Of a stretch of 21,478 bases of DNA, positions 2,366 to 21,239 are shown piece after piece. Position numbers and translations under genes: made by a program. This DNA is from a virus. The notes below the pieces were generated by a model, which worked only from the letters and a program-made list of their open reading frames with translations, ran no database searches and was not told where the DNA came from. The DNA lies in IMG/VR virus record IMGVR_UViG_3300012920_010783, positions 1 to 21,478 of that record. The stretch is one strand, 5' to 3'. Numbering within the stretch: the stretch's first letter is position 1; each line of letters begins with the position of its first letter.

Positions 2366-2814
2366 TTTCTACTTTTAACTACTTTATTATAGTAATCTTC
2401 ATCCCAAAATCTATAATAATCTGTATTTTCTAGCTTATCTGAATATTTATTTAACTCAGATAGTCCCTGTATAAACAAAATTGCATATTCATCGTTATTT
2501 GTTTTAATGCCATTAATTTTATTAATTTGATCTGGGTGATCCCAAATCAACCATAAATCTCTAGAGTTTGCCAAATCTTGATATTGATTGCAGAAATTTT
2601 CAAGCCAATTTTTAGTAAATTTTTCTTTATCTCCGTAAATTAACCATAGCATTGGTCTGTGTTCGGAATCTAGGCAGTTTTTTGCGTCTATAAAAAAATC
2701 AGTTGATTCAATTATTTCCATTTTGCTGAGAAAGGCTTTTGCAAATGGGCAAATCGCATGACCTCCAAGCTCTTTGCGTTTCATAGAAACGTAATCTATA
2801 TAATCTCTAATCAT
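2362..2814 (-). CDS. Unknown protein with CPFAK motif, 150 aa
   Basis: A 150-residue soluble protein I cannot assign. Near the N-terminus it has GGHAICPFAK (residues 17-26), whose CPFA core recalls the motif that begins DUF1415-type proteins, though length and remainder do not clearly match. The middle is rich in Trp (LWLIYGDKEK, LWLIWDHP). It overlaps the transferase-like gene upstream by 8 bp and the lipoprotein gene downstream by 4 bp, so it is co-translated with the SpeD/transferase pair and may act in the same pathway. The conserved Cys, Pro and His could be catalytic or metal-binding; that is inference. Confidence 0.7.
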   Translation of the reverse strand: MIRDYIDYVSMKRKELGGHAICPFAKAFLSKMEIIESTDFFIDAKNCLDSEHRPMLWLIYGDKEKFTKNWLENFCNQYQDLANSRDLWLIWDHPDQINKINGIKTNNDEYAILFIQGLSELNKYSDKLENTDYYRFWDEDYYNKVVKSRK

Positions 2815-3589
2815 TTATAAAAAAATTTTTATCATCATGCTTCTTTATTTTATCTAGATCTTTAGTTTTTTCGACCTTCGAGTCTCGATCACAAAGCCAG
2901 CGATAGTGATCTGCGTCATCTGACCATTCTTCTCCTGTCCAAAACTCAAATCCTGCGTAATCTGCTTTGTATGCGCAACAATTTTCATATCCTGCTCCTA
3001 CATACATATATTCTTTATTATTTTCAATGCAATAATCTATTTCTGCTAGGTTAGCATATTTGCCGAGGTATAGTTTGGGATTTGCGTAATTCCAAGCGAA
3101 TTGAGTGGAAAATACGCTATTACTCCCTACATCTCTCATGTATGTAAATGCTATTGGGTCGTGCCAACCACCTTCTTCTGAGGGAGAATAGTATATTATA
3201 AAAAATTTACGATCTACTTCTAGTTCGATTAATGGTTCGAGTTTCCAAGGTTTAAAATTTCTATACTTTATATATTTGTCAAAAATAGAATTCAAAATAC
3301 CCATATCTATATCTTGGGCTCTAATTACTTTAGTTAATATGTTTCTGCATTTTTTTCTTGTCTTTTTATTGCTTTTACTGTCTAAGAATTTACTCAAGCA
3401 TATTCTTGTTTGTCTGGCTTGATACCAATGCGATTTCTTATCATTTTTAGGGTTAAAATAGTCATCTGGTAGCCAGCCCTCAACTAATGCTTTATCCTCA
3501 TCTTCCTTAGGAACTCGAGCCATACAGTCAAAAAAAAGGTAATCATATTCCATGATTGCTCCAGAATAATGTCTGAAGTATATTTCCAT
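2807..3589 (-). CDS. Arginyl/leucyl-tRNA-protein transferase-like (ATE/Bpt fold) protein
   Basis: This 260-residue protein resembles ATE1/Bpt transferases, which move an amino acid from aminoacyl-tRNA to a protein N-terminus using a GNAT-like fold. The clearest match is residues 173-222: YLGKYANLAEIDYC, then YMYVGAGY, then CCAYKADYAGFEFWTGEEW, matching the family pattern SLGxYxxLxxI / YLYLGYxI / YKAxFxPxE...W. An upstream stretch (residues 58-82, Arg/Lys-rich after GWLPDDYF) fits the family's VRVxxFxxSxSQRR region. The N-terminal Cys cluster of true ATE/Bpt enzymes is not obvious, so the acceptor may differ. Start choice: ATG 3589 has AAGGAGG 12 nt upstream, while an internal ATG at 3553 has GGAG at better spacing. 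It directly follows the SpeD gene, 1 bp away. Confidence 0.7.
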   Translation of the reverse strand: MEIYFRHYSGAIMEYDYLFFDCMARVPKEDEDKALVEGWLPDDYFNPKNDKKSHWYQARQTRICLSKFLDSKSNKKTRKKCRNILTKVIRAQDIDMGILNSIFDKYIKYRNFKPWKLEPLIELEVDRKFFIIYYSPSEEGGWHDPIAFTYMRDVGSNSVFSTQFAWNYANPKLYLGKYANLAEIDYCIENNKEYMYVGAGYENCCAYKADYAGFEFWTGEEWSDDADHYRWLCDRDSKVEKTKDLDKIKKHDDKNFFIND

Positions 3590-9651: not shown

Positions 9652-10755
9652 TTAAAAACCGTAAATTGCATTAAAGTCTTTGCCACCTTTTGATTTAATG
9701 GCTCTTTTAATGGTTTTATGAGCTAGGTCAATTTCGCTTTCCTCAAGATCATCTTCATTTATATCTACATCTACAGATAAGAATTCATCAAACGTACTGA
9801 TATCTAATGTGGATTCTTCTACCGTATCCCCTCTCATAGATAGAATATTTTTATCACTTTCTGCTCCCATGCAAATCCAGTTTAAGGGCATGCCAAAATC
9901 ATCTGCTTCTTCTGAAAAAGCAGACTCACTTGGCTCTTCATCCCAGATGAAAAAGGGTCTCATTCCCTCTGACCAAGTGTGAGCAAACGCCTGAACGTTT
10001 TGCATGTCGGTAACTTGCTCTCCGCCTACTTCAGACGGATTAAGTTTATGGTTTAAAATATTATAAGAGAGCGAGAAAAATTTTCCATACTCCCCTCCGC
10101 TATACAGGTGGAACCATTTAAATAAATTACCGCAATTCCAGCAACCAGTTTTCTCATTTGTGATAACTATTCTATTTTGTGCGGTCTCTGAGATTTCTTC
10201 GAAAGCATCGTAAAATGTATCCACAACATTTTTTAATTTAATTTCTTCACTTTCGTTTACGGAATTATTTACTTGAATAATAATTGGAGAGCTGAGGTCT
10301 GGAGAGAGTTCAAATAAGTCAAAAATTGTCGACCATAAATTGATTTTCGCAGCGGATTTTTTCATAGTGGCAGTTGTTCCACAAAGATGAGTAACTTTTG
10401 AAAGATCAACCGAGATATCAATATTATATTTTCTAGCTAATATTCCAATTTTCTTTAATTCACGAATGATATTCTCATGGTTAGGCAGGTCTTTAATCGA
10501 ACAGGGAATTGCTTCGTCATGCAAAAGTGGAATCAAGTCATGGTATATGGAATAATGCTTTATTCCATTCGCGTGGCAGTATTTTATAGTTTTCTGTGCA
10601 ACTGCTGCATTGTGCTCGATTATTTTGCCTAAATCTTCTGCTGATTCTTCTACTGATTTGGAGGTAAAACTTTTTTTAGAAAAGTTTCTGAAAACACAAT
10701 TACTATCATTTTTTGATAGCAGGGAGCTTGAATGCAACAATCCGTAATTATTCAT
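9652..10755 (-). CDS. UvdE-like TIM-barrel protein with altered metal site
   Basis: The 367-residue product resembles UV damage endonuclease UvdE: near residues 40-75 EHNAAVAQKTIKYC then GIKHYSIYHDLIPLLH match the family pattern (ILxYNxxHGIKxFRxSSDLxPL), and later parts follow the same barrel strands (IGILARKYNIDISVD; NRIVITNE; LNHKLN; HTWSEGM). Yet most metal-ligand positions of UvdE appear replaced: MHPGQF reads VDLSKV, IHVGG reads IQVNN, LENDD reads ITNEK, and KIHYS reads FFIWD. It is thus probably not a standard UvdE nuclease. I chose ATG 10755, with a TGTAAT box 7 nt upstream, over a TTG at 10773. The next gene, dCMP deaminase, abuts its stop. Confidence 0.72.
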   Translation of the reverse strand: MNNYGLLHSSSLLSKNDSNCVFRNFSKKSFTSKSVEESAEDLGKIIEHNAAVAQKTIKYCHANGIKHYSIYHDLIPLLHDEAIPCSIKDLPNHENIIRELKKIGILARKYNIDISVDLSKVTHLCGTTATMKKSAAKINLWSTIFDLFELSPDLSSPIIIQVNNSVNESEEIKLKNVVDTFYDAFEEISETAQNRIVITNEKTGCWNCGNLFKWFHLYSGGEYGKFFSLSYNILNHKLNPSEVGGEQVTDMQNVQAFAHTWSEGMRPFFIWDEEPSESAFSEEADDFGMPLNWICMGAESDKNILSMRGDTVEESTLDISTFDEFLSVDVDINEDDLEESEIDLAHKTIKRAIKSKGGKDFNAIYGF

Positions 10756-10762
10756 ACTATCA

Positions 10763-10769
10763 ATTACAC
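10763..10769 (-). promoter_or_regulatory. TGTAAT box 7 nt before UvdE-like gene
   Basis: On the minus strand: GTGTAAT, TGATAGT, ATG at 10755. A TTGATT lies 16 nt further upstream (10790-10785), making this the one box with a fair -35 partner. Confidence 0.58.
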
Positions 10770-10786
10770 TCAAGCCCCCCTACTAA

Positions 10787-11508: not shown

Positions 11509-12798
11509 ATGGCATTAGAAGAATATGAGCATTCCGCTAGGAATATGGAAGAGAGTTTTGGGCTCGCCCCCACTGCGCTCATATCTTTGTACGAAATCTA
11601 CCATATTTACGGCAGGCAAGACGTAGACGACTGGAGAAATCGAGAATATGCATTAAGATTTTGCTCTGCAGACAATCTCGCGGGGCTGACAAGCCAAACG
11701 TTAAATAGAAGATCTCTTGAGCAAAAGGGGCTTAAATGGGCGGGGTATTATTATGTTCCAATTGGCATTCAGTCTAATTCTTTCGCAACCGCATCGCAAG
11801 GATTACCGAGACCAACTTTGGTTATATCTAACAAAGGGATTTCCTCGCAAGTCGCATCTGATGACTATGGTTCAATGTTTCCTGTTTTTGATTCAATATC
11901 TCAATATAATTTATATTATAATGATTTAAATAACGCAAGAGTAGTCAGAAGAAGGGTATTTGCAAAATTTTTAGATGGAGAAAATTTTCCACATAATAAC
12001 AATATAAATCCTTGGGGCACAAGAGGGACACAGGTTCGTGGAGATGGAATCACGAATGGATCTGGTGAAGTAGTAGGAAACAAAAGCGAAGTTTTCGAAT
12101 TTTCAAAAGAGCTATATTTTATATCTAAAAAGGTAAATGAAACAAAAGAAAAAATAGAATATGAGTTAACAACTTCAATTGATTCAGAGAATGTTATGAT
12201 ACCAAATAGGACAATATTAGCTAATCATTGTTCATGGTGTTATCGGGGCGAGGGATGTTCTTATTCTGGGCCGCCTGTGGCAACAGATCTAGATGACGAA
12301 AGCTTTATGTTGAACACCGAAAGTGGATATGACGACAGTAGTGGTAGCGGACTGCAGCGTCTTGATAGCAAGCGCATATCTTCTACCCAAAGAAGAGTGC
12401 GCTCCAGCGGATATTCTGCAGAAATTGGAGAATCTGATTGGACCGTTTCAATATCTACATGGTCAAGAGGAAAAAAATATTTAAGAGGAGATGTAGTCCG
12501 CACACCATCAATAACTTCTGAAGGATTCACTGACGGCACTAAAACTACCAAATTAAGTTCTTCAGGAGAAATTGTTATTCAAAATGACATAACAGTTTGG
12601 GTCTGTTTAATAGAGCACACGAGCTCCAACAACACATCTCCCGAAAGTAAAAGCGGGCATTGGGTGGCTGACCAATGCTCAAAAACAATTAAGGGATGTA
12701 AACTAAGGTTTCAAAATAAAAACAATTATACAAACAATAAATCATTGAGATTCGGGGGTTTTCCCGCTACATTTGATTTTGATACAGGAGGAGAATGA
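11509..12798 (+). CDS. Minor tail protein L (tail-tip, Fe-S type) with inserted module
   Basis: The gpL family builds part of the siphovirus tail tip. Here the middle reads RRRVFAKFLDGEN (147-159) and EYELTTSIDSENVMIPNRTIL (217-237, split as EYELTTS, IPNRTIL), as in lambda gpL, followed by C241-SWC-YRGEGC250-SYSGPP and, 140 residues later, DQC390-SKTIKGC397-K. C241, C250, C390 and C397 fit the four Cys of lambda gpL that hold an iron-sulfur cluster. Lambda gpL is 232 residues; this one has 429, largely because of an insertion between the two Cys pairs (about 256-388). That insertion ends in a module with W318-x5-Y324-x2-GDVV, C366-x3-H370, P378 and W385, like a CBM5/12 carbohydrate-binding domain. 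No Shine-Dalgarno precedes the ATG. Confidence 0.9.
   Translation: MALEEYEHSARNMEESFGLAPTALISLYEIYHIYGRQDVDDWRNREYALRFCSADNLAGLTSQTLNRRSLEQKGLKWAGYYYVPIGIQSNSFATASQGLPRPTLVISNKGISSQVASDDYGSMFPVFDSISQYNLYYNDLNNARVVRRRVFAKFLDGENFPHNNNINPWGTRGTQVRGDGITNGSGEVVGNKSEVFEFSKELYFISKKVNETKEKIEYELTTSIDSENVMIPNRTILANHCSWCYRGEGCSYSGPPVATDLDDESFMLNTESGYDDSSGSGLQRLDSKRISSTQRRVRSSGYSAEIGESDWTVSISTWSRGKKYLRGDVVRTPSITSEGFTDGTKTTKLSSSGEIVIQNDITVWVCLIEHTSSNNTSPESKSGHWVADQCSKTIKGCKLRFQNKNNYTNNKSLRFGGFPATFDFDTGGE
12786..12791 (+). promoter_or_regulatory. Shine-Dalgarno AGGAGG deciding the JAB gene start
   Basis: AGGAGG lies 8 nt upstream of the ATG at 12800, inside the end of gene L. It argues for that ATG over the in-frame ATG at 12773. 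It also shows that the host ribosome uses Shine-Dalgarno pairing, making its absence at unit-leading genes more notable. Confidence 0.85.
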
Positions 12799-12799
12799 T

Positions 12800-13171
12800 A
12801 TGCATCCTTTGAAAAAAGATATTAAAACCCACGCCCTTAGCAAATCTAGAGAAGAAGTCTGCGGATTTATTGTGGAAAATAAAGGCAAACTAGAAGTAGT
12901 TAGATGTCAAAACGCATCTTCTACCCCAGAAAAAAGATTTGAAATACATCCTGAAACATATTTACAAGTAAAACTGCAAAACGAACTAGTTGCAATATAT
13001 CATAGCCATCCAGAAAAAGCGCCTTTTTCTAGAGACGATATCCTCGCCGCCGAGTCTTATGCATTGCCCTGTATATTATATATAAACCCTTCTAAAGAAT
13101 TTGATGCATATTATCCTAAATATGCCGAGACTAAACACATTAAAGATATTAAGGAGGTTATGAATGACTGA
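12800..13171 (+). CDS. JAB/MPN-type tail assembly peptidase (gpK N-domain homologue)
   Basis: A 123-residue JAMM/MPN+ domain protein in the position of lambda gene K. Motifs: REEVCGF near residues 17-23 with the catalytic-type Glu, then IYHSHPEKAPFSRDD with the HxH and S-x2-D zinc site. The spacing between the second His and the Ser is six residues, one shorter than the usual seven. Lambda gpK has a second NlpC/P60 cell-wall hydrolase domain that is missing here. It begins right after gene L (TGA-T-ATG), and the next gene starts inside its 3' end (8 bp overlap). The expected role is tail-tip assembly or proteolytic maturation, possibly of gpI or gpJ. Confidence 0.88.
   Translation: MHPLKKDIKTHALSKSREEVCGFIVENKGKLEVVRCQNASSTPEKRFEIHPETYLQVKLQNELVAIYHSHPEKAPFSRDDILAAESYALPCILYINPSKEFDAYYPKYAETKHIKDIKEVMND
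13151..13157 (+). promoter_or_regulatory. Shine-Dalgarno AAGGAGG for first gpI copy
   Basis: AAGGAGG is 6 nt upstream of ATG 13164, within the JAB gene. An ATG at 13160 belongs to the JAB frame (its penultimate codons) and is not the start. Confidence 0.83.
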
Positions 13172-13742
13172 AGTTTATCTGCACGGAATTTTAGCTAAAA
13201 AGTTTAAACAAAAATATACCTTTGACATATCTAAACCAGAAGATCTTATGGTGGCCATAGACTCTAATAGTCCTAATTTCTTAATATTTTTAAGAAACAA
13301 TTTTGATACTCTGAGCATGTCTGTATTGGTTGATAAAAAAGTAATGTCTCCAGACGTTTCTTCTTTTAAAAGGGGCTTTTCCCCTAAAAGAATAGATTTA
13401 GTTCCTGCTTTATCTGGAGGGCTCGGATTTTTGGGATGGTTTATTATTGGACTATTCGCGAGCGCTACTATTGCTTACTTGTTTGCTGCTAATAGTGTGG
13501 CTCCTCCTGAGATGGACAACAATAGCGAGCAATCTGTAAAAACCAGATCTTTTGAATTTGCTGGAGAAGTCAATCTTGAAAAACAAGGCAAACCTGTTCC
13601 TGTAGGATACGGGAGGCTGAGGGTCGGAAGTTATGTAATTGGCTCCCAAGTTTGGAATCGCAACCTTTTTAACCAAGTTAAGTCTGCGGATGCTAGTAAA
13701 AGCGCCGCAAGTTCGTATGACGACGATGAAGATGATGATTGA
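13164..13742 (+). CDS. Tail assembly protein I, copy 1
   Basis: A 192-residue gpI/TAPI protein. An N-terminal beta-grasp-like domain (MTEVYLHGILAKKFKQKY, to about residue 80, ending RIDLVPALSGG) is followed by a hydrophobic segment (about 88-112), then the signature tail domain FEFAGEVNLEKQGKPVPVGYGRLRVGSYVIGS (split: NLEKQGKPVPVGYGRLRVGS), as in lambda gpI (xGPVNTxAQGxPVPVxYGRxxVGS). The C-terminus is NRNLFNQVKSADASKS followed by an acidic DDDEDDD tail. The family acts in assembly of the tail tip with gpK, L and J. A strong Shine-Dalgarno precedes the start. A second copy follows; its last 89 bp are almost identical. Confidence 0.88.
   Translation: MTEVYLHGILAKKFKQKYTFDISKPEDLMVAIDSNSPNFLIFLRNNFDTLSMSVLVDKKVMSPDVSSFKRGFSPKRIDLVPALSGGLGFLGWFIIGLFASATIAYLFAANSVAPPEMDNNSEQSVKTRSFEFAGEVNLEKQGKPVPVGYGRLRVGSYVIGSQVWNRNLFNQVKSADASKSAASSYDDDEDDD
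13652..13740 (+). repeat. Direct repeat, copy A (end of gpI copy 1)
   Basis: These 89 bp recur at 14239-14327 (offset 587) with a single visible mismatch (G13704 versus A14291). The upstream parts of the two genes have diverged much more, so the match is local to the 3' ends. Confidence 0.93.
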
Positions 13743-13756
13743 TTAAGAAAATAGTT

Positions 13757-14329
13757 ATGACAGAAGTATTTTTACATGGTATATTAGAAAAAAAGTTTCG
13801 TAAAAGTTACTCTTTTAGCCTTAATAGATTTGAAGAAGTAATGTCTGCGATAGATTCCTCTGAGCCTAAATTTAGGCATTTTTTAGCGCAAAACTTTGAT
13901 TCTATGGAATTTTCGATATTGTGCGACGGTAAAACTGTGAACATGAATTCTGATTGCTTAAAGAATAGTCCTTCTAGGATAGATCTAATTCCTGCAATGA
14001 AGGGGTCGTTGGAACCATTTACCATGTTTTTAATAATGCTCTTCATTAATGTTGGTATAGCTATTATACAGGCCTCTGCTTCTGTACCAAAACCTGAAAT
14101 GGATAACAATAGCACACAATCTGCAAAAACAAAATCATATGAATTTAATGGCGAGGCCAATGTCCAAAGGCAAGGAAAGCCAGTGCCTGTTGGCTATGGA
14201 AGGTTAAGGGTCGGTAGTTATGTAATTGGCGCCCAAACTTGGAATCGCAACCTTTTTAACCAAGTTAAGTCTGCGGATGCTAGTAAAAGCACCGCAAGTT
14301 CGTATGACGACGATGAAGATGATGATTAA
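13757..14329 (+). CDS. Tail assembly protein I, copy 2
   Basis: A second gpI/TAPI gene in tandem, 190 residues from the ATG at 13757. I chose that ATG over a TTG at 13739 because it aligns with copy 1 (MTEVFLHGILEKKF versus MTEVYLHGILAKKF). The beta-grasp domain is clearly related but diverged; a hydrophobic segment (about 92-112, FTMFLIMLFINVGIAII) follows; the tail domain NVQRQGKPVPVGYGRLRVGS and the acidic DDDEDDD end are nearly the same as copy 1. The TGA of copy 1 is 14 nt upstream and the start of gpJ overlaps this stop. Either both proteins are built into the tip, or they form a heteromeric chaperone pair; the sequence cannot tell. Confidence 0.88.
   Translation: MTEVFLHGILEKKFRKSYSFSLNRFEEVMSAIDSSEPKFRHFLAQNFDSMEFSILCDGKTVNMNSDCLKNSPSRIDLIPAMKGSLEPFTMFLIMLFINVGIAIIQASASVPKPEMDNNSTQSAKTKSYEFNGEANVQRQGKPVPVGYGRLRVGSYVIGAQTWNRNLFNQVKSADASKSTASSYDDDEDDD
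14239..14327 (+). repeat. Direct repeat, copy B (end of gpI copy 2)
   Basis: Partner of 13652-13740, identical at 88 of 89 positions by eye. In both copies it encodes the last 29 or so residues, including the acidic tail, and ends just before the stop codon. Confidence 0.93.
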
Positions 14330-17300
14330 TGATAATGAAAATGATTAATGTAAAATTTTATGGAATATTAAGAAAAACTTTAGGAAGAAGAAAGTATTAT
14401 TCCAAAGAAGAGTTATTGGCGTTTTTATCTGCGACCATTTACGAAACCAACATAAGTTACGATCAAAAAACCGATATCTATCATGTTTCTCCAAGGATTG
14501 CTGGTTCTGGTGGAGGAGGAAAGGGGTCTCCTCCCCCTGTACCTCTTCTGCAGCCCCCCACTGCCGGCCAGAATGTTTTACAAAGTTTTTCACAGATGGA
14601 AGTTGTCGACTTAATTTGCGAAGGGCCAATACAGGGATTCTGCGATGCAGATGGGAATGAAATAGACATAAAAAAGGTCTCAGACCCTGCAGCTACTATT
14701 GCACAGGGAGTATTTCTTAATAATACAATCGTACAAAACCCAAATAATACTTTTAACTTTAGAAGATTATCTTTAAATTCATCTGTAGGTGATGCTAATG
14801 GCATAAGTCGTATGGCATGGGCAAGGTCAAAAATATATCGGACAGTAGACATTAATAGAGCTTTAGTTGGGCCAAATATGAGAACAGACAGCGCAAGCAG
14901 TGTCGATGCTGGGGCAAAAAAATATAATATGGATGGTCAAACTGGAGCAAATTACCGAAATAATTTTGGTAATGCTATAGGCTGGTATTTAGGAGATGCA
15001 ACCTCTACCGAATTATCAAAAAAATATGGATATACTCACAGCTCTCTTCAGTATGGAAGCGACATTAGAACCAATACCGAAACTAGAGATTTTACAAGTT
15101 GGAGCCCCGGCCAAGCAAACTATAATGAGGGTGCGTTTCCGGTGACACATACAATTTCAAACTCAGAGGTGGATTATGCTTATGCAACAATTTCTGTAGA
15201 TGGATTAAGTGACACTGTAGATCATGGCTCTGGGGCGGGGAAATCTGGCAAAATATCTTCAGCAAAAGAGCATAGAGTTGGATTTGAAATACAAATTGGA
15301 GTAAATGGAATAACCGACGAGGAGGCTAAGTCTGAAGAATTTAGAGCTTGGCTATTAAAACACGGAGTTACTCAGGATGAAGACAAACCAAGGTTATCTG
15401 TGACGAGAAATTACTATATCGAAGGGCTTGTTCAGGGCGGGGCCTACTTAGTTGATGTAGGGCGTGCTCCATGGGGAACAGATTTTGGCCAATTTTCGGA
15501 TGGATATAAATTAAAAGATTTATCTGAGACTCCTGCCGACGGCAGCACGGAGAATTTGCCTGAGGCAGGCAGGGTAGAAGATGTGGCTGCTGGGTCAGCT
15601 GGGGACGCTACACAGTTTGATACTGATGCTGATTATAGCGGAGGTCACGGATTAAATAAATATAGACAATTTGGTTATAAGGGAGCAAATGATGCCTCAA
15701 TGAGAGATAATTTCGAGGATGCTTTGCAAACAGCTTATATTGATCCTAATGATAATTCTGCTAGCTCGGAATCTTCCGCAGTTGGTGCAGCTTCTTCTTA
15801 TGACTGTTTTGAGCTTCCTCCATGCGTTCAATCAACTAATTTTAAGACCAGATATATTAAAGTTACTAAGTTAGGGCGAGAGGTTATTTCGCCGTTATTG
15901 AATAACTCTATAACCTTAAAAAATGTAACAGAAATTATAGATGAAAAACTGAGCATGCCCTTTTCTGCAGTTATCCAACAAAGTTTTAATTCTAGGTATT
16001 TTAACGGCATACCAAGCAGAACCTATCACTTGAAATTAAAGAAAATACTGATTCCAAGTAATTACTTTCCTGAAAAGAGACTACCAAGCGCACCTAGGTC
16101 TAGCGCGAGCGATAAAACTTATAACGGAGATTGGGATGGAACATTTAAAGAAGCATGGAGTGATAATCCTGCATGGATATTTTATGATTTATTAATTAAT
16201 AATCGATATGGTCTGGGTAGTCATGTAGATGTTCATAAAATTGATAAATGGACGCTTTATAAAATTGGTCGATACTGTGATGCTGTTGATGAGGAAGGTT
16301 ATTTCGTGGGTGTTGACGATACTTATGGTAATAATCAAAAAGAACCTAGATATACATGCAATGTTATGATCACTAACGAGGAAGAATCTTATGAGTTGCT
16401 AAAAAGTATATCTGAGATATTTCATGGCATAGCTTTTTGGGACGGGCGAGGGGTTTCGGTCTCTATGGACGGGGGTAGTAGTAGTGTTGCATCTACAGTT
16501 TGGCAAACTAACCAAAGTTATGCGGTTGGTGATGTCGTAGAAAGTCCAGCAAATTCTTTTAACTTTTTTAAATGTAGAGTTGCTCATCAAAATATTAATC
16601 GAAAGCCGGGCATTGATAATAATTGGGAGGAATATTGGGATCGCACTCCGGGAATAGAGACCGAACCACCCTCTATGGCATTTACTAATACAAATGTTGA
16701 TGGCGGAGTTTTTTCTTATTCTAACGCTTCTAAGTCTTCTAGGTTTACTGTCGCTAGAGTTTCATATATGGACAAAAGGGATGATTTTAGAAAAAAATAT
16801 GAATATGTTGAAGATAAGCAAGGTATCAAAGAATTGGGTATTATAAAGAAAAATCTTGAACCTCTTGGCTGTACTTCGCGCGGCCAAGCTCATAGGATGG
16901 GTAGATGGTTCTTTTTAACATCAACTTTGAATACTGAAATAATAAGTTTCGCAACAGATTACAGAGCTTTATTTTTGCAGCCCGGAAATATAATTGAAGT
17001 AAATGATAAATTAAAAAATAAACAACAAAAAATAGGTAAAATTCTTGAAATTTCTCCAACAGATAATACGGTGCTTAAGTTAACTGAAGAAGTTGACATA
17101 AGAACCACTTTAATTGATAATGAAGACCCTGATGCAGGGTCTAAATTTGAGATAATACTGACCTCTTTAGACCCAAACTATTCTGTCGAATATATTAATA
17201 ATTCCTCAAACTTTAATCAAGGAAAAAGGTCTATGGCTGATATTGATAAATTAAATAATTCTCAAATATTAAGAGGTCAAATAGATTTTCCGCCAGCAGG

Positions 17301-20262
17301 CTTTGATTCAGATCATATAAGAATTAAAAATTTAGAAAATGGTGCATACTTTAAATTTACGAATAAATTGTCTTCTCAACAGGAGGATGAAAAAATTATT
17401 CCTCCGGGAACTGATTGGGCATTGGTAAAGCCAGATGACGGAGAACCTCATAAAGAAAGCTGGACATCGAGAGAGTATAAAGTACAAGGAATCTCAGAAG
17501 ATGAAGAAGGAAAATATACCGTAACAGCAGTATTTTTTGACAAAGAAAAAATAGGGTCTATGGATCAAAAATTTGCTGTGATTTCTCCTAAAATAGACAT
17601 GGATGTTGGATTCAGTTCATCCCCTATTGTGGACCTCTCCTCGCCAACAATATCTAGTGTAGAGCAAACAGAGAGCGACCCATCTAAGCCTATTAAAATA
17701 TCTGTTGAAGGCACCCATCCACCTGTCGCCGGATTCAGTCAAAGCTCTATGTCTACAGAATTATGCATTTACAATCCGGCTGGCACGAAGGTTTATACTC
17801 AAACAGTTTCTAGGGGTAGTAATGAGGCTTTCTCTATTCAATTTACTAGTAGCATAAACCTTAATGACGCTTCAGCGGAAGGAATTTGGTATGCTGAAGC
17901 GACAACTTCAGCCACAAACTCTACTACAAATAAAACGCAGATATCAGTTACAGCTTCCATGGGGGTTTCTGTGGGAAATTTTAGTTTTAGGGAGGGAGCG
18001 AAACCAGAAATACAAAATTTAACAGTTAATGGAGTTACCTTGTTTAATGATTTTGAAGTTCAGTCTGAAAGCGATAGATTTGTAATATCATGGGATATAT
18101 TAGATATAGATTCTGAATCAACATTAATAACTTCTGCTAGCGATTTAAATCTAAGCCCTTTTGCATCTGGTATAAAAGTTGGACTTGTAGCTTTAGACTC
18201 AGGTGGTAGCGAAGTTGGTGAGATCGCTTGGATTCACGGATTAAATTCACAGGGGGCGCAAAAGAGCATACTTAAGTCATTAGATTATACATTTATTTAT
18301 AGTGAACGATATAAAACTAAGACTGCTTCAGATCAAAATGAGTCATTTTTGTATCCAAATTTAGCAAACCATAGAGACATAAGAATCAAGTTGGTTCCTG
18401 AGGCTCGTGCGGGCGTAGATGCTAACGGTGAAACAGTTTATATTGAAGGTACTCAAAAGAATATAGACATTAAAAATAGCGCGATTACATACAGCGATAC
18501 TTCAACTGGGGGAACTTTAGAATTTGTATTTGAATTGCCATTTGATAGCGCAACATTCATGAACGGTACGAGTGGAGCACAAGTTAAGCCAGATGGCTGG
18601 AAGAAAATAAATTATCTTTACGAAAATGAAGATGGTGACATAGTACAAGCAGAAACCGATTTCAATGGGGCAATTCCTGAAGATGTAGACGGCGCAGAGG
18701 TGGCTTTTGACTATAGGGCAGAGATTGCAAAAAGCGATGTCATGATGGGATTATCTGGGGTAGATGGCGGTGGTAGAGTATTAAGTGGGTCGGCTGCAAT
18801 CAATATTTGGAGGACAATTAAAAATGGCACAAGGCGCTCTTTACAGACTTCTAACGCTAGTACTACTGCACCAGTATCTCATCCCAACGATGAAAATCCC
18901 GTAATTGGCCTTATACCGATTGATGATATGAGAGAAATCGCCGAAGCGGAGGGCTCTCCTTCTAGTAAAGGTGGTGTACATTTTTACAATTATCAATTAG
19001 TCATAGGTCAAATTGACGAAAACATAACTGATTCAGAAGTCGTCGAGCAGATGGGTAATTGGGAAACAAATACACGGACGATTTCTAATAACTTAGATAC
19101 ATTTACCGCATTGTATGATGCTGCATACGTGACGAGCGATAACCAAGGCATACTTGTAATGGATAGGTTAAGTATTGAGGTTGCCGGCGAATCGGGGAGA
19201 ACGCATGTTGGCTATATGACCGTCCATCTTTGCGCTGAAAAAAATGAAGTTCCAAGCGACGAAAATGAAGTATCGGGAACAACTGCTCCTAATATATCAA
19301 TTGGTTTCGATATTGATGGTATAACAGGGTTAAGTAATCAAGTGGAAAATGGTAAATATATTAAAGTAAGAGTATGGGACAAATTTAATTGGAATAAACA
19401 AATCGGAAAAACCATCGAAGAAAGAAAAGAGAGCGTCGTTCCTCAAACTATTCTCATAATGGAAGATTATCTTTTTTACATGGACGAGTCATCTAATTTT
19501 ACAGATTTATCAGAAGATGATGACAGTGGTGAAATAAGAGAGCTAAAATTAAATATGAATACTTATGGGGACGAAAGGGTAGTTGGTTACAAGCAATTTT
19601 ATAATGGAATGATCATTGGAGGAACTGAAGAAGTCAGATGGAGCGATGGAAGCAATATAGATTATAATGATCTTGATGCATTTACACAATACCCTGTTTA
19701 TAATGACGTCGTTAGTAAATCAAGGTCCAGCGCTCAAGAATTCAAGGGGTCTCCTGTTGGAATTGGTCAATTTGATATCAAAGGCCTAGAAGGAAAAGAG
19801 TTTCCTAATTTGATGGGTGATGGAAATTCTAATGATATCGAAGGGATGACCGTGGCTACTGACATTCGTGATCTAAAAGACTATCATGTATCTATTAAGG
19901 GCATGAATTTAACTTGTGAGGCTGGAGATCAAGGAAATTATAATGGATCAGGCGGCTTAATTTCTGGAGAAAAAATTCACTCTCCTTCATTCCGAGCAGG
20001 AGAATCTATAGTTGATCTAAACCAACTTCCGACTATAGAAAATAATAGTATTGCGTCTAAATTAACGGGCGAGGCTGAAATTGCTACTTTTGTTCAAAAT
20101 AAAATTCAGGAAAATGCGCTTCCATTGGACGGTTTAATTCAAACATCGTTTACATCAAATTTAACAATTAGTGGTGGAGCTAAAATAGGAATGAGTGGTT
20201 CTAATTTTATAATTCAAACTAACGATGGTACGATATATAAGATAACAGGTACTGTAATTTAA
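14329..20262 (+). CDS. Tail tip / host-specificity protein J
   Basis: A 1977-residue central tail-tip protein, longer than lambda gpJ (1132). Residues 5-57 (MINVKFYGILRK ... IYHVSPRIAGSG) resemble the gpI N-terminal domain, an apparent fusion. A Gly/Pro linker (60-77) leads to the typical gpJ start QMEVVDLICEGPIQGF. The core has TYNGDWDGTFKEAW, NPAWIFYDLLINNRYGLG, LYKIGRYCDAVD and RYTCNVMITNEEESYELLKS, as in COG4733/phage-tail-3 proteins. Residues 722-772 hold a CBM5/12-like insert (W725-x5-Y731-x2-GDVV, C749-x3-H753, P760, W766). Later parts look like FN3-type beta domains and a Ser/Asp-rich host-contact region, ending ISGGAKIGMSGSNF. ATGs at 14329, 14335 and 14341 are possible starts; 14341 aligns best with gpI. 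The 3' end overlaps the convergent guaC gene. Confidence 0.92.
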   Translation: MIMKMINVKFYGILRKTLGRRKYYSKEELLAFLSATIYETNISYDQKTDIYHVSPRIAGSGGGGKGSPPPVPLLQPPTAGQNVLQSFSQMEVVDLICEGPIQGFCDADGNEIDIKKVSDPAATIAQGVFLNNTIVQNPNNTFNFRRLSLNSSVGDANGISRMAWARSKIYRTVDINRALVGPNMRTDSASSVDAGAKKYNMDGQTGANYRNNFGNAIGWYLGDATSTELSKKYGYTHSSLQYGSDIRTNTETRDFTSWSPGQANYNEGAFPVTHTISNSEVDYAYATISVDGLSDTVDHGSGAGKSGKISSAKEHRVGFEIQIGVNGITDEEAKSEEFRAWLLKHGVTQDEDKPRLSVTRNYYIEGLVQGGAYLVDVGRAPWGTDFGQFSDGYKLKDLSETPADGSTENLPEAGRVEDVAAGSAGDATQFDTDADYSGGHGLNKYRQFGYKGANDASMRDNFEDALQTAYIDPNDNSASSESSAVGAASSYDCFELPPCVQSTNFKTRYIKVTKLGREVISPLLNNSITLKNVTEIIDEKLSMPFSAVIQQSFNSRYFNGIPSRTYHLKLKKILIPSNYFPEKRLPSAPRSSASDKTYNGDWDGTFKEAWSDNPAWIFYDLLINNRYGLGSHVDVHKIDKWTLYKIGRYCDAVDEEGYFVGVDDTYGNNQKEPRYTCNVMITNEEESYELLKSISEIFHGIAFWDGRGVSVSMDGGSSSVASTVWQTNQSYAVGDVVESPANSFNFFKCRVAHQNINRKPGIDNNWEEYWDRTPGIETEPPSMAFTNTNVDGGVFSYSNASKSSRFTVARVSYMDKRDDFRKKYEYVEDKQGIKELGIIKKNLEPLGCTSRGQAHRMGRWFFLTSTLNTEIISFATDYRALFLQPGNIIEVNDKLKNKQQKIGKILEISPTDNTVLKLTEEVDIRTTLIDNEDPDAGSKFEIILTSLDPNYSVEYINNSSNFNQGKRSMADIDKLNNSQILRGQIDFPPAGFDSDHIRIKNLENGAYFKFTNKLSSQQEDEKIIPPGTDWALVKPDDGEPHKESWTSREYKVQGISEDEEGKYTVTAVFFDKEKIGSMDQKFAVISPKIDMDVGFSSSPIVDLSSPTISSVEQTESDPSKPIKISVEGTHPPVAGFSQSSMSTELCIYNPAGTKVYTQTVSRGSNEAFSIQFTSSINLNDASAEGIWYAEATTSATNSTTNKTQISVTASMGVSVGNFSFREGAKPEIQNLTVNGVTLFNDFEVQSESDRFVISWDILDIDSESTLITSASDLNLSPFASGIKVGLVALDSGGSEVGEIAWIHGLNSQGAQKSILKSLDYTFIYSERYKTKTASDQNESFLYPNLANHRDIRIKLVPEARAGVDANGETVYIEGTQKNIDIKNSAITYSDTSTGGTLEFVFELPFDSATFMNGTSGAQVKPDGWKKINYLYENEDGDIVQAETDFNGAIPEDVDGAEVAFDYRAEIAKSDVMMGLSGVDGGGRVLSGSAAINIWRTIKNGTRRSLQTSNASTTAPVSHPNDENPVIGLIPIDDMREIAEAEGSPSSKGGVHFYNYQLVIGQIDENITDSEVVEQMGNWETNTRTISNNLDTFTALYDAAYVTSDNQGILVMDRLSIEVAGESGRTHVGYMTVHLCAEKNEVPSDENEVSGTTAPNISIGFDIDGITGLSNQVENGKYIKVRVWDKFNWNKQIGKTIEERKESVVPQTILIMEDYLFYMDESSNFTDLSEDDDSGEIRELKLNMNTYGDERVVGYKQFYNGMIIGGTEEVRWSDGSNIDYNDLDAFTQYPVYNDVVSKSRSSAQEFKGSPVGIGQFDIKGLEGKEFPNLMGDGNSNDIEGMTVATDIRDLKDYHVSIKGMNLTCEAGDQGNYNGSGGLISGEKIHSPSFRAGESIVDLNQLPTIENNSIASKLTGEAEIATFVQNKIQENALPLDGLIQTSFTSNLTISGGAKIGMSGSNFIIQTNDGTIYKITGTVI

Positions 20263-21239
20263 ACTTCAGCGTATTCTACTTCTTTTAAAGCGCTTAAGTC
20301 TTCGCCCCCCGCATAAGAAATGGAGCTCTGTAGGTCTTGCTTGATCTCGTTTAATTTTTGCTCATAGCTCATTCCGTTGGATGAAATATTCGTGAGCTTT
20401 CCTTCTATATTATTGTTATGACCTTTGTTTTCTGCGCTTGCTGAGCCAAAATAGGCTTTATGGAGCGTACCATTAACCGTACTGCAGATCGCAGGACTAT
20501 CTGTACAAGCTGCAAATAGTCCGCCTGCCATAACCATATCTGCCCCTGCCACAATAGCTTTTGCTATATCTCCATTACATTTGACTCCTCCATCTGCAAT
20601 TATTGAAATCTTTTTGCCTTCTTTTAAGAAATCGCCCGAATGGACGTTCGAGCAATTTTTTGTACAAGTAAACATTGGTAATGTAAATCCTGTCTTATCT
20701 TTAGTTGTGCAAGGCGAACCTTGACCAATGCCGACCTTAACTACGTCTGCGCCCCATGATGATAGATCTCTAACTGCAGTCGGTGTAGCTACATTTCCTG
20801 CAATGATTTTAGTTTCAGGCATAAATTTTTTCACACATTCAATTGCGATCTTCATTCTCTCACAGTGACCATGAGCAATATCGATTGTAATATAATCCAC
20901 TCTCTGTTTGTATTTTGCAAGGGCGACTATATCTTTCTTATCCTCCATTTTAACCCCCATACTAACTGAAATAGTTTTCCAGTTTTCATCATTCATTTGA
21001 GATACAATGTCCTTGAGGGGGTTATCGAATCTGTGCATTATATAGAAATAATCATGTTCGCTCATCCATTTCGCAGTCTGCATATCAATAACAGACTTCA
21101 TATTTGCCGGAATGATGGGTAGTCGAAACTTTTCTCCACAAAAATCTACACCAGTATCGCAGTCTGCCCTGCTATAGACTTCGCTGTAGTTTGGGACTAG
21201 AGCTATGTCTGAATATTTTAGGTATTTATTTTTGCTCAA
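20259..21239 (-). CDS. guaC: GMP reductase
   Basis: A 326-residue IMPDH/GMPR-family TIM barrel without CBS domains. Key segments: LVPNYSEVYSRADCDT, LPIIPANMKSVID, FYIMHRFD, YITIDIAHGH, KIIAGNVATP, and the active-site loop KVGIGQGSPCTTK with catalytic C177, then IIADGGVKCNGDIAKAI and GADMVMAGGLFA. The HRFD and DIAHGH motifs and the lack of CBS domains favour GMP reductase (GuaC, the short Bacillus type) over IMP dehydrogenase. It turns GMP into IMP with NADPH, allowing guanine nucleotides to be rebalanced toward adenine during replication of an AT-rich genome (inference). It overlaps the small upstream gene by 14 bp and ends 4 bp inside gpJ. Confidence 0.93.
   Translation of the reverse strand: MSKNKYLKYSDIALVPNYSEVYSRADCDTGVDFCGEKFRLPIIPANMKSVIDMQTAKWMSEHDYFYIMHRFDNPLKDIVSQMNDENWKTISVSMGVKMEDKKDIVALAKYKQRVDYITIDIAHGHCERMKIAIECVKKFMPETKIIAGNVATPTAVRDLSSWGADVVKVGIGQGSPCTTKDKTGFTLPMFTCTKNCSNVHSGDFLKEGKKISIIADGGVKCNGDIAKAIVAGADMVMAGGLFAACTDSPAICSTVNGTLHKAYFGSASAENKGHNNNIEGKLTNISSNGMSYEQKLNEIKQDLQSSISYAGGEDLSALKEVEYAEV

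Follow-up and report, generated by a model that had tools for sequence, protein, structure and literature searches.

The window analyzed here, an IMG/VR viral contig of 21,478 bases from a metagenomic virus, carries two adjacent, full-length gpI genes, and the account that we favor, at a probability of roughly two in three, is that of a K(JAB)-Ia-Ib-J operon in which an old gpI duplication was recently homogenized over its last 89 bp and both proteins would dock on gpJ. The preliminary description of this DNA had reported two tandem gpI genes with near-identical 3' ends, and both are confirmed as open frames on the + strand, gpI-a at 13164-13742 and gpI-b at 13757-14329; its count of 88 matching positions over the last 89 bp is exact. 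Its restriction of the resemblance to the 3' end holds for near-identity in nucleotides, but likeness of the proteins extends further, with 62% identity overall. In lambda-type tails, the gpI plug retains DNA and may enter the outer membrane at ejection; we know of no role for the ubiquitin-like N-terminal domain of gpI.

The lambda-type tail-tip operon spans 11.1-20.3 kb of the window on the + strand in the order short gene, L, K-like, gpI-a, gpI-b and J, which places both gpI genes between K (JAB) and J. The L gene matches phrog_18 and Phage_tail_L. The 126-aa gpK-like protein (12791-13171, + strand) matches Pfam PF14464 Prok-JAB (E 2.7e-11) as well as phrog_30 and phrog_2635, and its ORF consists of the JAB domain alone, the NlpC/P60 domain of lambda gpK being missing from it. 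Matches to the phrog_32 tail assembly protein were obtained for gpI-a (E 1.4e-18) and gpI-b (E 4e-23); the ORF caller started gpI-b at a TTG at 13739, but by homology the gene begins with the ATG at 13757. The central tail fiber or hub protein gpJ (14341-20262, + strand), recognized by phrog_31 (central tail fiber J) and by a phmmer match with lambda J (8iyk_J, E 2.4e-28), is the protein to which the C-terminus of gpI is expected to bind in the window.

Flanking the operon on the minus strand are genes for an IMP dehydrogenase/GMP reductase (IMPDH, 20259-21239) and a UvdE-type UV-endonuclease (9652-10773). Because these genes flank the tail operon likewise in an independent IMG/VR contig (L003) and in a 203-kb contig (L019), the arrangement suggests that the window is a fragment of a phage with a large genome. 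In the L019 record there is also a second, distant UvdE match and, at 1194-1940, a Cupin_8/JmjC-type gene within the tail module just before L, a gene that neither the window nor L003 has at this position. Elsewhere on the minus strand of the window, positions 2807-3589 give a weak match to ATE_C, the arginyl-tRNA-protein transferase C-terminal domain (E 1.7e-5), unexpected for a phage, and positions 298-1140 combine an APS-kinase/AAA_33-like N-terminal part with a weak cytidylyltransferase-like stretch and a match to the phrog_10255 kinase.

Both gpI copies share one domain order, namely an N-terminal ubiquitin-like domain, a hydrophobic segment, a plug/J-binding core (PEMDNNS..QGKPVPVGYGRLRVGSYVIG) and a C-terminal tail (WNRNLFNQVKS+ADASKS(A/T)ASSYDDDEDDD), and the gpI family profile matches lambda gpI (8iyk_I) with an E of 2.9e-12. 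AF2 modeled residues 1-83 of gpI-b as a beta-grasp, confident over residues 1-80 with pLDDT mostly 78-95 per block, and the nearest solved folds by Foldseek were the ubiquitin-like MoaD and Urm1 at a probability of 0.98-0.99, with E only 0.02-0.09. Hydropathy places the hydrophobic segment at residues 77-113 in gpI-a and 83-111 in gpI-b. The C-terminal half of gpI alone gave no confident AF2 model, which is what one would expect of a segment whose folding takes place on gpJ.

The homogenized tract lies at 13652-13740 in gpI-a, acidic tail included, and at 14239-14327 in gpI-b, both on the + strand at an offset of 587; 13704 is the sole mismatch, and the match runs into the stop codons as far as their second base. 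It encodes WNRNLFNQVKS and a lineage-specific tail ending in DDDEDDD. Among degenerate codons whose amino acid is identical in the two window copies, the longest run with the same codon is 33, a length reached in 0 of 20,000 shuffles (permutation p <= 5e-5), which makes the identity tract of the window long relative to shuffled columns. In the tail, dS between the copies is 0 over 15 silent sites, compared with 1.3 to 2.8 in other parts of the gene pair. Outside the tract, nucleotide identity is 56% for the N-terminal domain and 42% for the membrane segment; it reaches 77% for the PEMD..VIG core, where the protein is conserved between copies and the silent sites are not. For the L003 pair, the same permutation tests gave p 0.0016 for the nucleotide run and 0.47 for the same-codon run. 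The alignment of the gpI family profile with lambda gpI stops at residue 210 of 223, close to where the core ends, so that the tract corresponds to the last lambda gpI residues and beyond.

Both L003 gpI proteins (173 and 172 aa) form the same tandem pair, while L019 has a single gpI that ends in WNRNLFR. In a careful tree, window_a joined L003_a (97/87) and window_b joined L003_b (99/98), and these gene-by-gene clades show that the duplication predates the split between the window and L003. The single L019 gpI joins the gpI-b branch, and this phage may have lost one copy.

For gene conversion, the preliminary description had proposed asking whether copies from one genome resemble each other more than copies from different genomes, synonymous sites included, and this comparison bears conversion out in the two genomes, the window and L003, that carry this particular pair. 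In the N domain, nucleotide identity was higher for orthologues (67 and 75%) than for paralogues (56 and 54%), whereas in the last conserved 11 codons of the tail (WNRN..KS) paralogues (100 and 88%) exceeded orthologues (79 and 82%). Informative sites grouping by gene and by genome numbered 32:5 in the N domain and 20:2 in the membrane part (together 52:7), compared with 5:6 in the core and 0:4 in the tail; Fisher p against N domain plus membrane part was 5.5e-4 for the tail and 4.7e-5 for core plus tail. Four tail codons (AAC/AAT, GTT/GTA, AAG/AAA, TCT/TCA) are alike within a genome and different between genomes, and NQVKS varies at silent sites between genomes and not within. The genome-grouping signal in the tail comprises these four shared codons and one indel character, the 18-residue tail, in two genomes; window tail codons bear no consistent resemblance to L003 copy a or copy b. 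On these grounds, recent gene conversion is the best reading of the gpI 3' end.

The same sites bear on constraint alone, under which both C-termini bind the same gpJ groove and selection holds them identical, as the preliminary description had allowed for NRNLFNQVKSADASKS plus the acidic tail. Although all four proteins share a conserved core and WNRNLF, and the C-terminal part of lambda gpI contacts gpJ, silent changes are absent from the tract and near saturation beside it, and the terminal 18 residues, that is ADASKS and the rest of the acidic tail, are found in both window copies and in neither L003 copy nor the L019 gpI. Because silent sites group by genome and the tail is present or absent by genome, constraint as the sole cause cannot explain the matching ends, and we regard it as quite improbable. 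Selection at the nucleotide level, with the shared 3' ends providing the next gene with a signal for coupling or re-initiation, would fit the GGAGG-type sites seen by eye before K and Ia, the lack of a clear Shine-Dalgarno sequence before Ib or J, and the overlap of each L003 gpI stop with the next start (Ia/Ib/J) as ATGA. We consider it highly improbable, given that the sequence and length of the tract differ between the window and L003 and that the spacers after the two tract copies of the window are dissimilar and unequal in length.

An assembly artifact, in which one gpI gene was given the 3' end of the other by copying or a wrong join, is also unlikely. The window is a single metagenomic contig, and an exact 32-base piece of the tract matched no other viral contig, so this search provides no independent copy of the tract; yet the two ends differ by the private mismatch at 13704, in their stop codons and in the spacers that follow, both genes have open frames in their proper positions, and the pair recurs in the independent L003 contig, in which the two ends likewise have silent states in common. 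A different doubt is whether gpI-a is redundant or decaying and kept by chance, gpI-b alone being functional, in line with the faster evolution of gpI-a (orthologue N-domain dN 0.29 vs. 0.16 for gpI-b) and with the grouping of the single L019 gpI with gpI-b. This too seems unlikely: the gpI-a frame is open, its dN is low against saturated dS in both genomes, 20 N-domain and membrane positions are paralogue-specific across the window and L003, and tandem pairs recur in other lineages. Paralogue-specific residues kept across these two genomes number 13 in the N domain, 7 in the membrane part and 4 in the core. Purifying selection acts on both copies, dS being saturated for gpI-b also, from which it follows that both are probably in use.

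Loci fetched from IMG/VR viral contigs with the gpI family profile included six tandem groups (window/L003; L011/L012/L017/L047; L016; and the L057, L088 and L091 groups), every other fetched locus being single. One ancient duplication common to the window and L011 clades was rejected by an AU test, in which the L011-clade a copies were held with window_a and L003_a (p-AU 4e-116), a grouping named after the first tree was seen. Because the L011-clade pair is nested among single-gpI phages and the test rejects joining the a copies, tandem gpI has at least two independent origins. Near-identical 3' ends were found in none of the tandem pairs of the L011, L057, L088, L016 and L091 clades, so conversion is not general to tandem gpI. 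As a general rule, 3' homogenization was also rejected within L011/L012/L017/L047, where C-terminal parts are conserved (paralogue identity 73-94% per 20-codon block) and paralogues are generally no closer than orthologues, with a weak hint in the last L047 codons. In three cases (L016, 2044-3359; L057, 2638-3931; L088, 3501-4797) the linker of the second gpI, by hydropathy, is 77-78 residues compared with 52-55 in the first, about 24 longer, an asymmetry that hints at different membrane roles.

Among cultured phages, tblastn with six gpI queries, a search that could miss divergent second copies, placed gpI at one place per record in the records listed; for four of five queries there were two more places than records, for one there were none, the two-place records lying outside those listed, and the sixth query behaved alike. 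The bacterial genomes searched yielded only three gpI loci, all single, and a literature search that partly covered subscription journals found nothing on tandem or duplicated gpI. The preliminary statement that a single gpI is usual in lambda-type tails is consistent with the public phage records listed, which have one match each, and has to be tempered by the several viral-contig lineages in which pairs recur, so that tandem gpI is not unique to the window. What is new is a modest variant, a doubled gpI with converted ends, the gpI family itself being already known.

A further, small beta-grasp domain is predicted by AF2 at the start of J (residues 1-52, window 14341-14496), its best matches being protein L/G folds with a Z of about 5.5, and J starts in a like manner in L003 (from 5034) and L019 (from 3992). 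The J start MINVKFYGIL.K... resembles the gpI start MTEVxLHGILxKK; the gpI HMM was not significant alone against the J N-terminus, and a profile-profile comparison aligned only 18 residues, at 72% probability. It is as if, going by the model, J carried a third, truncated gpI-type domain. The JAB-only K-like gene adjoins two ubiquitin-like gpI genes, and in gpI-a a GG (SGGLG) ends the ubiquitin-like domain. JAB cleavage of gpI has been proposed at this place (PMC1779556).

According to PMC10721106 and PMC11101478, the tube of the lambda tail is plugged by a gpI trimer (three copies per tail) that passes through gpJ with its C-terminal part, by beta-augmentation, and whose hydrophobic helices may insert in the membrane. 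Under the old duplication with recent homogenization that we favor, gene conversion or template switching has very probably homogenized the last 89 bp, with protein-level constraint on the neighboring core acting beside it. As in lambda, gpI-a and gpI-b would dock the same C-terminal segment into gpJ, where they may compete for or share three sites, so that we infer a mixed trimer plug or two alternative plugs, i.e., a mixed or two-role tail plug. The common gpJ partner could tolerate or favor identical gpI ends, and the ubiquitin-like domains and membrane segments may have specialized; division of labor between the two proteins is possible, being compatible with purifying selection on both. 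More tentatively, and with less than even odds, the plug may be an obligate hetero-oligomer whose common gpJ-docking C-terminus is kept alike by repeated conversion while two different ubiquitin-like/membrane parts are maintained, with several independent origins and sometimes a pair of short and long linkers. Independent gpI duplications in which the J-binding end stays alike amid divergence of the ubiquitin-like and membrane parts can serve as a natural experiment on the functions of the different parts; they also suggest that the three-fold plug may be built from more than one protein. The conversion tract, in turn, is an example of a new C-terminal tail spreading between paralogues.

Compared with known systems, the window gpI pair resembles lambda gpI (PDB 8iyk chain I, 8iyl, 8k35, 8xcg) in full-length homology, in its N-terminal domain, hydrophobic segment and C-terminal plug/J-binding region, and in its position between K and J; unlike lambda with its one gpI, the window has two, with a homogenized 3' end, an acidic C-terminal tail and a JAB-only K neighbor. 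The TAPI ubiquitin-like proteins described beside JAB peptidases by Iyer, Burroughs and Aravind (2006), along with TAPI-TAPJ fusions (PMC1779556), likewise have a beta-grasp N-terminal domain ending in glycine, adjoin a JAB gene and precede J; the accessible parts of that paper describe no tandem TAPI, whereas the window has two, followed by a J that starts with a predicted beta-grasp domain. The other IMG/VR tandem pairs also place two adjacent full-length gpI genes before J, but differ in a separate origin, at least for the L011 clade, in ends that are not near-identical, and in the long second linker of L016, L057 and L088. Finally, as in concerted evolution of tandem paralogues by gene conversion, identity at silent sites is greater within than between genomes in one segment only; unlike concerted evolution in general, the window case affects no more than the final 89 bp of a phage tail gene, including its lineage-specific C-terminal tail.
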